This document shows positions 42,678-48,169 of a DNA stretch of 64,000 bases, piece after piece (position 1 is the first letter of the stretch; every line of letters starts with the position of its first letter). The stretch is from Dehalococcoidia bacterium. Lineage in GTDB: Bacteria; Chloroflexota; Dehalococcoidia; DSTF01; JACRBR01. Made by a program: the position numbers and the translations under genes. A model generated the notes under the pieces. The model saw only the letters and a list, made by a program, of their open reading frames with translations, was not told where the DNA came from and did not search any database. The stretch covers positions 70,773-134,772 of the forward strand of contig JBBDXD010000019.1 of the NCBI GenBank assembly GCA_040902535.1. Reading direction: 5' to 3'.

Positions 42678-43040
42678 ATGCCCGTCAAGTCCAAGAGCAT
42701 CTACGACCCGGCCGAGCCTGGGGACGGCGTGCGCGTCCTGACGACGAACTATTGGCCGCGGGGCATCAGCCGAGAGCGCGCCGGCACATACAAGCGCGTG
42801 TTAGGCCCCTCACGTGAGCTGCTTCGCGCCTTTAAGGATGGCCTTATCGACTGGGCGGGATACGAACCTCAATACCTGGAGCAGATGCGGGGCGAAGCGC
42901 AACAGACGGAAATCCAGGCACTCGCACAACTTGCGGCAACCGAGACCATCACCGTGACGTGCGTCTGCAGGGAAGAGGCTGAGTGTCATCGACGGCTCTT
43001 GCGGGATCTCATCGAGCGAGAAGTGGAATCGCCATCATGA
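42678..43040 (+). CDS. DUF488 protein, YeaO-like
   Basis: 120 aa. RVLTTNYWPRGISRERAGTY, PSRELLRAF and the terminal TCVCREEAECHRRLLRDL match the YeaO branch of DUF488, including the conserved Cys-x-x-x-x-x-Cys-His-Arg. Function in the family is unknown; the conserved Cys/His suggests metal or thiol chemistry. First gene of a three-gene overlapping set (ATGA overlap with the next) read from a leaderless promoter. Confidence 0.85.
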   Translation: MPVKSKSIYDPAEPGDGVRVLTTNYWPRGISRERAGTYKRVLGPSRELLRAFKDGLIDWAGYEPQYLEQMRGEAQQTEIQALAQLAATETITVTCVCREEAECHRRLLRDLIEREVESPS

Positions 43041-43537
43041 AGCTCTTCACCCTTGGCCATAGCATCGCGACTCTCCAGCAGTTGATGGACATCTTGTCCG
43101 ACAACGCTATCGATGTGCTGGTCGACGTCCGTAGCAAGCCGCGAAGCCGGTTGGCGCATTTCGACCAGGTACCGGTACAGACGGCTGTTGAAGGGGCTGG
43201 CATGCGATACCGCTTCCTCGGTGATCGTCTCGGCGGCGTGCCGCGCGATCCCGAAGTGCAGCGTCGCTGGCGCCAGGGGCACCTCGACCCCGTGATCGTC
43301 TCTCATCTGCGCGGCACCGACGAATGGATCGACGGCATCGGCGAACTCGTCGGATTGATCGCCGCGGCGGGCGGGAGCAACGTCTGCATCATGTGCAGTG
43401 AAGGCGACCCGAACGAGTGCCATCGCAAGGCAGTTGCGCTCGATGCCGCTGCCGCGATTCCAGATCTCGAACTTGTACATCTTTCTATCAAGAAGTCCGC
43501 GCCGAGCGAGGTGGGCGTCCAAGAAGTCCTGATGTGA
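43037..43537 (+). CDS. DUF488 protein, long branch
   Basis: 166 aa. LFTLGHSIATLQQLMDIL, VLVDVRSKPRSRLAHFD and IMCSEGDPNECHRKAVALD are the three DUF488 motifs, the last again with Cys...Cys-His-Arg. The ATG overlaps the stop of the YeaO-like gene, and its stop overlaps the GTG of the next gene. Two different DUF488 paralogues side by side suggest a heteromer. Confidence 0.88.
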   Translation: MKLFTLGHSIATLQQLMDILSDNAIDVLVDVRSKPRSRLAHFDQVPVQTAVEGAGMRYRFLGDRLGGVPRDPEVQRRWRQGHLDPVIVSHLRGTDEWIDGIGELVGLIAAAGGSNVCIMCSEGDPNECHRKAVALDAAAAIPDLELVHLSIKKSAPSEVGVQEVLM

Positions 43538-44235
43538 GGCGCGAGCTCCTCATCCTGGACGTCACGGCCATGGCCGGCGACAACGTCTGCGTTGCGGGCC
43601 TGGATCTCGAGTCCAGGACGACGATTCGCCTCAACCAACCCCAGCCGACGCGCAGTGGCCTGAAAGCGCTCGGGGGGCTCACGCCTGGCGAGGTGATCGC
43701 CGTCGATGTTGAGCCCCTCGCCCAAACGACACGTCCGCACGTGGAGGATCACCAGTGGAATCCCCGCAGCGTCGAGAAGTTCCGCCGCATGGACAACGCT
43801 GAGATCCTCGGGGCGCTGACGGGGACAGAGGTCCGCTCCCTCAAGGATGCGTTCGGAGAGCCATCGCGTTCAGGAAAGCGGCATAACGCCGGATGGAAGC
43901 CCGGCGAAGGCGAGCGCTCCCTTGCGACGCTCCGCGTGAGGTATGTCCGTCAGGAGGAGGTCGAGGCGGGCAAGATTCGGATCGACCTGCGCGACAACGA
44001 GCGATACTGGCATGGAATCCCATTCCAGGACGTGACGGTCAGGGAGCACGGCACCAGTTGTGAAACATGCAGTGCAGGCTTCCTCGACCTCGTTCGGACG
44101 GACTTCGAGGCGAATGCATGCCTCGTGCGCGTCGGCCTGACGCGGCGATTTCCGCCGGACGAACATGACGACGGTTCGGCCTGCTGGCTTCAGGTCACGA
44201 ACATCTTCGCCCGCGACCGCGCTCACTTCTTCTAA
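43534..44235 (+). CDS. Dual-OB-like protein of the DUF488 operon
   Basis: 233 aa. The start GTG 43534 overlaps the upstream stop (GTGA). The opening ELLILDVTAMAGDNVCVAGLDLESRTTIRL matches what I remember of a dual OB-fold family (DuOB), in which a first OB barrel begins with I-L-D-VT-M-----VCVAG-D. The identification is from memory and needs a profile search. A possible metal site is CETCSAGF with DLVRTDFEA after it. There is no membrane or signal sequence. OB folds suggest nucleic-acid binding, consistent with a nucleic-acid-directed job for the DUF488 pair. Confidence 0.65.
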   Translation: MRRELLILDVTAMAGDNVCVAGLDLESRTTIRLNQPQPTRSGLKALGGLTPGEVIAVDVEPLAQTTRPHVEDHQWNPRSVEKFRRMDNAEILGALTGTEVRSLKDAFGEPSRSGKRHNAGWKPGEGERSLATLRVRYVRQEEVEAGKIRIDLRDNERYWHGIPFQDVTVREHGTSCETCSAGFLDLVRTDFEANACLVRVGLTRRFPPDEHDDGSACWLQVTNIFARDRAHFF

Positions 44236-45931: not shown

Positions 45932-46909
45932 ATGACGGCGCCGATCTTCCGCGCGCCATCATCGCCGGCGGCGAGTCCGGCGCACGCGTACGGCGTGCTG
46001 CGGCACGGATTTGCGTCGTTTTACGCGGCGCCCGTCGTCGAAGACATGGACGACTGGCACGCCGACGTCGCGTTCGTCGGCGTGCCGTTCGACGCCGGCA
46101 CGAACGACCGGCCGGGCGCGCGTTTCGGGCCGGCGGCCGTGCGCGACGCGTCGATGCGCTACCGGCCGGAGGAATTGTGGTCGGGCTGGATCGACGCCGA
46201 GCACGGCGGTCGCATCCTGGCGGACGTCTCGATGGCGGACGTAGGCGACGTGAACGTGCGCACCGTCGACCTGCGCGAGAACTTCGACGCGATCACGGAG
46301 GCGGCGCGGATGGCGCGTCGCAGCTCGCGCGTGCAGGCGTTCATCGGCGGCGACCACGCGATCACGTTCCCGCTCGTCCGCGCCTACGAGGATACGCCGC
46401 TGACGCTCATCCAATTTGACGCGCACCAGGACTACACCGACGAGAAGTCCGGCGTACGCTTCTCGCACGACAACCACATGCGGCGCTCGAGCGAGTTGCC
46501 GCACGTGCGGCAGATCGCGAACATCGGACTGCGGGGCGTCATCGAGCATTTCGAGCCGTACGAAGCGGCGCAGCGCAACGGCGTCACGATCGTGCCGGCG
46601 GAGCGCATCGTCCGCGAGGGCGTCGATGCGGCTATGGCGCCGATAGCGGGAAGCGGTAGCGCATACGTGACGATCGACATCGACGTGCTGGATCCGTCGG
46701 GGGCGCCGGGTACCGGGTATCCCGAGCCGGGCGGCATTACCTACTATCAGCTCCGCGACGCCCTGCGGCTCGTCGCCGCGCGCTACGACGTCGTGGCGTT
46801 TGATGTCTGCGAGGTCGACCCGATCTACGACACCGCCGCCGTCACGACGCGCATCGCGGCGAAGCTGGTGCTGGATTTTCTGGGGGCCGTCTTCTCACGC
46901 TTGCAATAA
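45932..46909 (+). CDS. Agmatinase/arginase-family ureohydrolase
   Basis: Hydrolyses a guanidino compound (agmatine, arginine or similar) to urea and an amine. 325 aa. The manganese ligands are visible: His in FIGGDHAITFP, DAHQDYTD and DIDVLDPSGAPGTGYPEPGG. The N-terminal FVGVPFDAGTNDRPGARFGPAAVR is typical of agmatinases. GGGGGTTGC precedes the ATG. Confidence 0.9.
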   Translation: MTAPIFRAPSSPAASPAHAYGVLRHGFASFYAAPVVEDMDDWHADVAFVGVPFDAGTNDRPGARFGPAAVRDASMRYRPEELWSGWIDAEHGGRILADVSMADVGDVNVRTVDLRENFDAITEAARMARRSSRVQAFIGGDHAITFPLVRAYEDTPLTLIQFDAHQDYTDEKSGVRFSHDNHMRRSSELPHVRQIANIGLRGVIEHFEPYEAAQRNGVTIVPAERIVREGVDAAMAPIAGSGSAYVTIDIDVLDPSGAPGTGYPEPGGITYYQLRDALRLVAARYDVVAFDVCEVDPIYDTAAVTTRIAAKLVLDFLGAVFSRLQ

Positions 46910-46976
46910 GCACTGATGTTCTGTTAGAATCCCGCTCCCGCACTGTGCCATAATCGTCGCGAAGGGAGTCGTCGAC

Positions 46977-47411
46977 ATGCCCCCAATCGACTGGCTTAAA
47001 CTTGTTCTCTTCCCTACCGATGGAGAACCTACGGCGCTGGATCCAATCCGTATCCAGAAGGCGTTGTTCTACATCTCCCGGTCAGACCAGATTCCGTCGA
47101 CCGAGAAGTACACCTTCGTCCCATACAACTATGGCCCGTATAGCAAGGCCATTTACGACGATCTCGATGAACTCGTCGCCAATCAACTTGCGGTTCCTGT
47201 TCAGAACACATCTCGCCGCTGGAGTCAGTACCAACTTACGCCTGCGGGCACGGAACACGTACGGCAACTGATGCCGGAGATACCGGGGGAATGGGTGGTG
47301 CTCGCAGCCGAAACCCGCCACCTAGTGACTTCCCTTACGTTCAAAGCTTTGCTGCGAAGGGTCTATGCGGAGTATCCAGACTTCGCCGAGAACAGCATCG
47401 CAAACATCTAA
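46977..47411 (+). CDS. YwgA/Panacea-like winged-helix protein coupled to a proteasome-like gene
   Basis: 144 aa. DPIRIQKALFYISRSD, then YTFVPYNYGPYSKAIYDDLDELVANQLA and WSQYQLTPAGTEHVRQL, follow the pattern of YwgA/DUF4065 (Panacea-related) proteins: an R/K-x-QK-LF helix, a YxYGPYS turn and a wing ending in LT-AG. Panacea-type proteins often act as antitoxins or regulators. The match is by pattern and is not certain. GAAGGGAGTC precedes the ATG. The TAA stop shares its last base with the ATG of the Ntn hydrolase (TAATG), a tight translational coupling. The codon use is less GC-rich than neighbours. Confidence 0.65.
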   Translation: MPPIDWLKLVLFPTDGEPTALDPIRIQKALFYISRSDQIPSTEKYTFVPYNYGPYSKAIYDDLDELVANQLAVPVQNTSRRWSQYQLTPAGTEHVRQLMPEIPGEWVVLAAETRHLVTSLTFKALLRRVYAEYPDFAENSIANI

Positions 47412-48169
47412 TGACGATTGTATGCGCGCTCATGGCGAAGACCGGCGTTGCAATCGCCGCTGACAGTCAAGCAACAGACCTCGAAGCCGGAATCAAGATT
47501 GTTGCCGACGATAAGCTGTGTCGACTCGGGACTCATCTTGTCTGGGGGTTCTCCGGCGCTGTCGGCCTTAAACAATTGATACGTCCCGCACTAGAGGCGG
47601 CACACGCGCCCGACTGGAAGCGCAAAACGATCGCAGAGCTTAGGATGCCCATCCCGGAACGCATAGCCACGGTTCGTAAGGCGGTCGCCGCTCAGCACTT
47701 GATCGCTCAAGCGCTTCCCTCGGCCGAAGCGATGGTCGTCGGCGTTACCGGTCCTCCAGGTATGCTCAAGCCGTGGATCCTCGAATGCCCTAGCGACAAT
47801 ATCGCGCAAGAGCATTTTCGCTTCTGCGCCATCGGAAGCGGAAAGAAGGCTGGGTATCACGGCTACGAGTCGCTCCGCCACTATGAGCCCCACGAGCAAC
47901 CCATCGGGCTGGCGAAACTCTTTCTGTTCCGGATCATGGACGACGCGATCAGAGCGGAGGGATTCGGCGTCGGGGGCCAGATCCACCTTTGGAGCGTCAC
48001 TAATGATGGTGCTGTAGAGGAGCCAGGCCCCGCGATGGAGGATCTGGCGCAACTGCTGGACCAATGGCGGCAGACTGAGAAGGAAGGACTCCGAGGGCTG
48101 ATGAAGCCGCCCGGGGACGAGCCGGGCGCGGAAGCGCTCGACACCGAGACTGAAGAATCTTCAGCCTAA
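47411..48169 (+). CDS. Proteasome-beta-like N-terminal-nucleophile hydrolase
   Basis: 252 aa. After Met removal the protein begins Thr1 (TIVCALMAKTGVAIAADSQAT), with Asp17 exactly where proteasome beta subunits have it. A Lys follows at 34 (ADDKLCRLG), one residue off the canonical Lys33. HLVWGFSGAVG replaces the usual LAIAGLVGD strand, and FCAIGSGKKAG matches the family AIGSGS turn. A helical tail of about 60 residues ends in an acidic EAEE-like stretch. No HslU, Mpa/ARC or Pup gene is nearby, and this is not HslV (which begins TTI). I infer a threonine peptidase working with the upstream YwgA-like protein. Its stop overlaps the convergent DUF6285 gene by 4 bases. Confidence 0.85.
   Translation: MTIVCALMAKTGVAIAADSQATDLEAGIKIVADDKLCRLGTHLVWGFSGAVGLKQLIRPALEAAHAPDWKRKTIAELRMPIPERIATVRKAVAAQHLIAQALPSAEAMVVGVTGPPGMLKPWILECPSDNIAQEHFRFCAIGSGKKAGYHGYESLRHYEPHEQPIGLAKLFLFRIMDDAIRAEGFGVGGQIHLWSVTNDGAVEEPGPAMEDLAQLLDQWRQTEKEGLRGLMKPPGDEPGAEALDTETEESSA

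Follow-up and report, generated by a model that had tools for sequence, protein, structure and literature searches.

Members of the proteasome-like family are typically peptidases that assemble into rings, although neither property is universal among them. For most uncharacterised bacterial proteasome homologues, no function is known, and the survey of Fuchs et al. (2021), describing 22 new groups of homologues, revealed no informative genomic contexts suggestive of one (PMC8665760). Small proteins of the Panacea class are described as directly binding and neutralising many toxins (PMC8832971). Both protein classes dealt with here are already known. A coupling of the two, found here as adjacent genes A and B, had no published description in the open-access subset of the literature that was searched, and in the same literature no proteasome-family toxin was reported. 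With a fixed partner of a toxin-neutralising class and a minimal mobile unit of 1.3 kb, the pair offers a direct way of testing what an orphan proteasome homologue does.

Gene layout and predicted features of the two proteins

The window, i.e., the whole stretch of 64,000 nucleotides from a Dehalococcoidia bacterium that was analysed, carries the pair on its forward strand (Table 1). Both open reading frames lie where an initial sequence-only reading had placed them and are joined by the overlap of stop and start codon that it had described; similar overlaps of the form ATGA join A and B in two further loci, L073 and L114. The pair was also said to be less GC-rich than its neighbours, and indeed has a GC content of 0.58, against 0.654 and 0.674 in the 5 kb on either side. 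The promoter-like site upstream of A is a consensus match only, with one such site found against 0.3 expected.

Table 1. Coordinates of the A-B pair and associated features in the window
Feature	Position	Strand	Description
Gene A	46977..47411	+	winged-helix protein, 144 aa, DarG C-terminal / YwgA / Panacea-like class
Gene B	47411..48169	+	252-aa proteasome-like N-terminal-Thr hydrolase, without propeptide, with long C-terminal helix
TAATG overlap of A stop and B start (translational coupling)	47409..47413	+	TAA 47409-47411, ATG 47411-47413
Inserted segment	46885..48193	.	exactly A + B, without transposase or integrase; missing from the relative G001
Promoter-like site	46901..46930	+	TTGCAA-18-TAGAAT with a TG-extended -10; upstream insert edge

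The predicted structure of A is a winged helix (pLDDT 91), which among solved structures best matches the part of the M. tuberculosis antitoxin DarG that binds DarT (7yk3, E 6e-5). MarR and PadR regulators follow at weaker scores, and the structural or sequence matches also include hsRosR, with PadR being matched by five of nine relatives (best 0.0038). As a single sequence, A of the window has no match in Pfam; in PADLOC, it matches the C-terminal models of DarG and HsdS. In the same database, the N-terminal part of PDC-M19A and the C-terminal part of a type I specificity subunit are matched by each of the nine relatives, and six of these match the DarG model. The Pfam family Panacea (PF13274) is matched by four of the nine (best 2.5e-5) and not by A of the window itself. 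From the assignment of A to a YwgA/DUF4065 pattern in the sequence-only reading, the antitoxin-related class was retained, with the correction that A is closer to the winged helices of the DarG C-terminus, the HsdS C-terminus and PDC-M19A than to Panacea of Pfam.

The best-conserved positions of A include a P-Y-x-Y-G-P stretch, the Y-x-Y-G-P part of which may be compared with the GPV motif required by Panacea antitoxins (PMC8832971). A conserved YPxxxxNS[VI] motif is located near the C-terminus, with the protein ending a few residues past it. In view of the winged-helix matches to PadR and MarR regulators, A may act on DNA, and the pair could consist of nothing more than a PadR/MarR-like transcriptional autoregulator next to a small peptidase or amidase that works alone. 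The PadR, MarR and hsRosR matches speak for such an arrangement, which we nevertheless regard as improbable, because the top structural match of A is a toxin-binding domain, no inverted-repeat operator was found upstream of A in the window, and the P-Y-x-Y-G-P stretch resembles a motif of toxin neutralisation.

A-like domains were also found outside the pair. The PADLOC candidate PDC-M19A has one fused to DUF488, and at L157-L161, L163 and L164 an A-like winged helix-DUF488 fusion is followed or accompanied by a second gene, which in L157 matches PDC-M19B; in Chloroflexota, this fusion and its second gene form a candidate system of two genes that occurs repeatedly. In L154, L155, L156 and L177, short ORFs lie downstream of A-like genes, that of L155 being followed by a DUF2335 membrane protein. 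An identification of the ORFs beside the A-like genes of L154 and L156 as RelE/ParE toxins was rejected, since the former gave no match and the latter a weak one to ParE only (E 0.014, under the cut-off). The occurrence of A-like domains with DUF488, and beside a weakly ParE-like ORF, indicates that the domain is reused with unrelated partners.

In B, all residues on which the proteasome assignment had been based, namely Thr1, Asp17, Lys34 and the AIGSG turn (numbered from the Thr after the Met), are present, Lys34 being equivalent to Lys33 of the proteasome with one inserted residue. Numbered from the Met, Thr2, Asp18, Lys35 and Gly49 of B correspond to Thr1, Asp17, Lys33 and Gly47 of the proteasome. 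No change from T2, G12, D18, S19, G49 or G142 was seen among 16 homologues; 15 of these have K35 as well, the exception being one copy of the Hasllibacter bin described below. The AlphaFold model (pLDDT 83.5) shows a proteasome beta fold, an outcome in favour of the unit, against which a missing Ntn fold would have counted; it is closest to Anbu (Foldseek E 7e-12), with which B shares the long C-terminal helix, and matches the 20S beta subunit of T. acidophilum with E 1.9e-11 and a TM score (target) of 0.81. A profile built from nine relatives of B matched solved proteasome beta subunits of archaea and eukaryotes (E 7e-13), B of the window alone having no sequence match in the PDB and no matching PADLOC model. 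Against the Pfam proteasome family (PF00227), it scores 18.5 bits, under the gathering cut-off of 22.4, and relatives pass, for example that of L205 with 39.6 bits; this score is a cut-off of convenience, and the assignment of B is carried by fold and residues.

Conservation in the homologues together with the predicted fold argues that the catalytic residues do not occur by chance, and with the triad Thr1/Asp17/Lys33 conserved, B is probably catalytically active. As the reading frame from 47411 begins with Met-Thr, removal of the Met would expose the nucleophile without a propeptide. In connectase, the same fold and triad carry a ligase activity without a ring (PMC8665760), and B might likewise be a ligase of this kind, or another specific Thr hydrolase modifying a protein, with A as its specificity factor. 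The model makes this very improbable: B appears to keep the helices matching H1/H2 and, judged from the described topology, to be without the two-helix S3/S4 insertion of connectase.

As the sequence-only reading had stated, neither HslU, ARC and Pup nor a second subunit is encoded near the pair. Genome-wide, too, the search of the host of the window pair gave neither a further protein of the Pfam proteasome family nor a true HslU. B is the sole PF00227 protein in six of seven pair-bearing host genomes, G000 having no PF00227 protein at E 0.01 or better, and none of the seven has an HslU over the cut-off; their hslU matches are partial, far below the cut-off, and probably ClpX-like. G446 has an ordinary HslV-HslU, separate from its A-B pair.

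Recurrence, co-variation and mobility of the pair

The adjacency of the two genes recurs in other genomes, with A directly upstream of B in all 12 independent loci (window, L066/L067, L068, L069, L072, L035, L036, L073, L114, L200, L205 and L206). They are spread over Chloroflexota, Alphaproteobacteria, unassigned bacterial bins and two contigs of a viral collection (L205 and L206, from IMG/VR), L200 originating from a relative of G448. The scan of the collection relied on a single short motif and a single central query and will have missed relatives, so that the 12 loci are a sample; the genomes surveyed are largely MAGs. A profile search with B in 400 Chloroflexota genomes gave strong matches in 6, all with A directly upstream, and among 84,980 species genomes all 8 loci with at least 98 bits to the family profile have A, whereas the remaining 51 loci, mostly archaeal 20S beta, stay below 60 bits and none has A. 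In relatives elsewhere, the pair was detected in 1/196, 1/142 and 2/149. The pairwise distances among A proteins correlate with those among B proteins (r=0.775, Mantel p=5e-5). With constant order, recurrence and co-variation, the proposal of a genuine two-gene unit was upheld.

A tree of B, with HslV and archaeal beta subunits for comparison, separates two subgroups, i.e., the window, L066, L068 and L069 on the one hand and the rest on the other, and the pairing is unaffected by this split. All family members are found on the same side of the comparison branch (98/91), but so is the long-branched L070, for which reason a strict monophyly is not established. The latter locus (L070:1829-3392), from a Candidatus Micrarchaeota bin, carries a tandem of two proteasome-like genes that diverge from archaeal 20S beta, and it lacks A. 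In viral contigs, the alignment of subgroup II found two relatives, that of subgroup I none, and searches with single proteins none; close relatives were not found in plasmids or cultured phages.

The Hasllibacter bin G445 has 11 B-like stretches on 11 contigs (L073, L125-L134), nine of them with A (L073 and eight more paralogous pairs, in which A again comes before B). Several of these copies are broken by stops or truncated, the decayed copy L127 has B without A, and an orphan A was seen at L128:4386-4811. The bin may represent an unusual expansion or be contaminated.

Two simpler identities were rejected. A mis-annotated HslV does not fit, as HslV and archaeal 20S beta do not exceed 72 bits with the family profile of 16 rows and come without A; the L070 protein has 82 bits with this profile, and the paired B proteins all have at least 98 bits with a smaller first profile. 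A housekeeping protease pair does not agree with the presence in 6/400 genomes and with empty sites.

Such sites, clean and of the size of the pair (~1.3 kb), were found in two Chloroflexota lineages. In G001, the flanks of the window pair are 50 bp apart, compared to 1,309 bp in the window; in nine sister genomes of G264, the corresponding flanks are about 10 bp apart, while G264 and G141 carry 1,351 bp. The inserts hold A and B only, no transposase was present within them, and the insert of the G264 lineage has a GC content of 0.60 against 0.67. The A-B pair is patchy and mobile and moves as a unit of about 1.3 kb.

A survey of the neighbourhood, suggested along with the recurrence in order to find defence islands, gave a divided result: the pair recurs, but its copies are mainly solitary insertions among housekeeping genes and mostly not located in such islands. 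Exceptions are L206, near a phage-type integrase and an HTH gene, L205, near a HigBA-like pair and an IS1-family transposase, and L061 (G433), in which the pair directly follows, in one operon, an N6-methyltransferase and a Methylase_S gene. The operon (L061:9757-13874) has no separate HsdR, and the N-terminal stretch of the methyltransferase looks nuclease-like when read by eye. This locus, together with the matches of A to the C-terminal part of type I specificity proteins, would fit an accessory of restriction-modification, in which B removes or restrains restriction enzymes and A is a specificity extension of the HsdS type. As no restriction-modification gene was recognised beside the other copies and the pairs of the window, G264, L114 and L200 lie among unrelated genes, we assign it the lowest probability of all alternatives.

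Two further observations concern the surroundings. An EVE-domain gene near L068 is a weak match under the cut-off. In the window, a cassette of DUF488-N3a, DUF488 and dual-OB (DuOB) genes lies 3 kb upstream of the pair (42678-44232), its DUF488 proteins matching the PADLOC candidates PDC-M45/M19; since the corresponding place in G001, between mfd and an aldehyde dehydrogenase gene, is taken by unrelated genes, this is a variable site.

Restraint or delivery as the proposed role of protein A

We see roughly an even chance that A and B form a module, toxin-antitoxin-like or antiphage, with A restraining B and proteolysis following the release of B. The link to a conflict module is drawn from the gene order, the overlap, the co-variation, the mobility and the relatedness of A to domains that bind toxins, the order being antitoxin-first with overlapping stop and start. 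Binding of A to B, inhibition, oligomerisation, proteolysis, toxicity and a trigger are what we infer. After removal of its Met, B would use the Thr as N-terminal nucleophile, activated by Asp17 and Lys33, and would probably assemble into a ring or another oligomer with no need of an AAA+ unfoldase. A, made before B from their common message, would bind B and keep it inactive or unassembled, and may repress the operon, too. Once A is lost or diverted, for example by phage infection, B would be released and degrade host or phage proteins. The fuller version of this proposal, a mobile immune or toxin-antitoxin module in which a proteasome-like particle, acting alone and independently of ATP, is held by a winged-helix antitoxin until phage infection sets it free to digest cell or phage proteins, is put forward tentatively and falls short of an even chance.

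Some points count against restraint and a conflict module. The searched literature reports no proteasome-family toxin, proteasome-like peptidases are usually self-sequestered and do not need an inhibitor, most copies of the pair are solitary among housekeeping genes, and the winged-helix matches to PadR and MarR regulators would also allow A to act on DNA. In addition, L070 has B-like genes and L127 a decayed B, both without A. The mycobacterial proteasome is opened by Bpa, which offers a parallel for A as an activator. The strongest rival to restraint is indeed that A docks on a ring of B, as an adaptor for substrates or as an activator independent of ATP, and feeds it specific clients such as a foreign, toxic or phage protein. 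It agrees with a B that has neither an HslU partner nor another proteasome subunit in its host, with the co-variation of both proteins, and with the conserved YPxxxxNS near the end of A, a possible docking tail. Among Panacea proteins, SocA is in fact such a proteolytic adaptor (PMC8832971); it delivers SocB to ClpXP. For the Panacea antitoxins tested by Kurata et al., direct inhibition and not proteolytic delivery was reported (PMC8832971). Moreover, the NS motif is internal in A-like proteins fused to DUF488 and hence not specific for B, and no client gene recurs beside the pair. We regard delivery as a serious but unlikely alternative; autoregulation, ligation and a restriction-modification accessory are less likely.

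Travelling as a 1.3-kb insert among unrelated bacteria and viral contigs, the pair may represent a so far undescribed conflict or defence module based on a protease. If the conflict reading holds, a proteasome-fold protease would join the effectors of bacterial immunity.

Comparison with described systems

No full defence model of PADLOC was matched by the pair, A matching only parts of the DarG, HsdS and PDC-M19A models. With the proteasome-like family (20S beta, HslV, Anbu, BPH and connectase), B shares the fold, the residues Thr1/Asp17/Lys33/Gly47 and the Met-Thr start. HslUV provides a bacterial Thr peptidase of the same superfamily, but B has no HslU and is not universal. In contrast to the groups of Fuchs et al., with which it was compared by description only, B has a constant upstream partner and is patchy and mobile (PMC8665760).

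A is similar to the C-terminal domain with which DarG binds DarT (7yk3), yet in its 144 aa it has only this C-terminal-like domain and no N-terminal macrodomain; DarT is missing as well, the partner being a proteasome-fold hydrolase and not a DNA ADP-ribosyltransferase. The N-terminal domain of M19A in PDC-M19, a winged helix-DUF488 protein with a partner, is A-like, whereas the effector of that system is DUF488 plus PDC-M19B and not proteasome-like. PanAT (PMC8832971) is similar to A-B in having a small upstream partner with a GP motif, an overlapping two-gene unit, a patchy distribution and a reused domain, and differs in that A of the window lacks the PF13274 match; a word search of two PanAT/NetFlax papers gave no mention of a proteasome-fold partner. 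In its overlapping genes, small upstream partner, conserved adjacency and patchy, mobile distribution, the pair displays traits of type II toxin-antitoxin systems.
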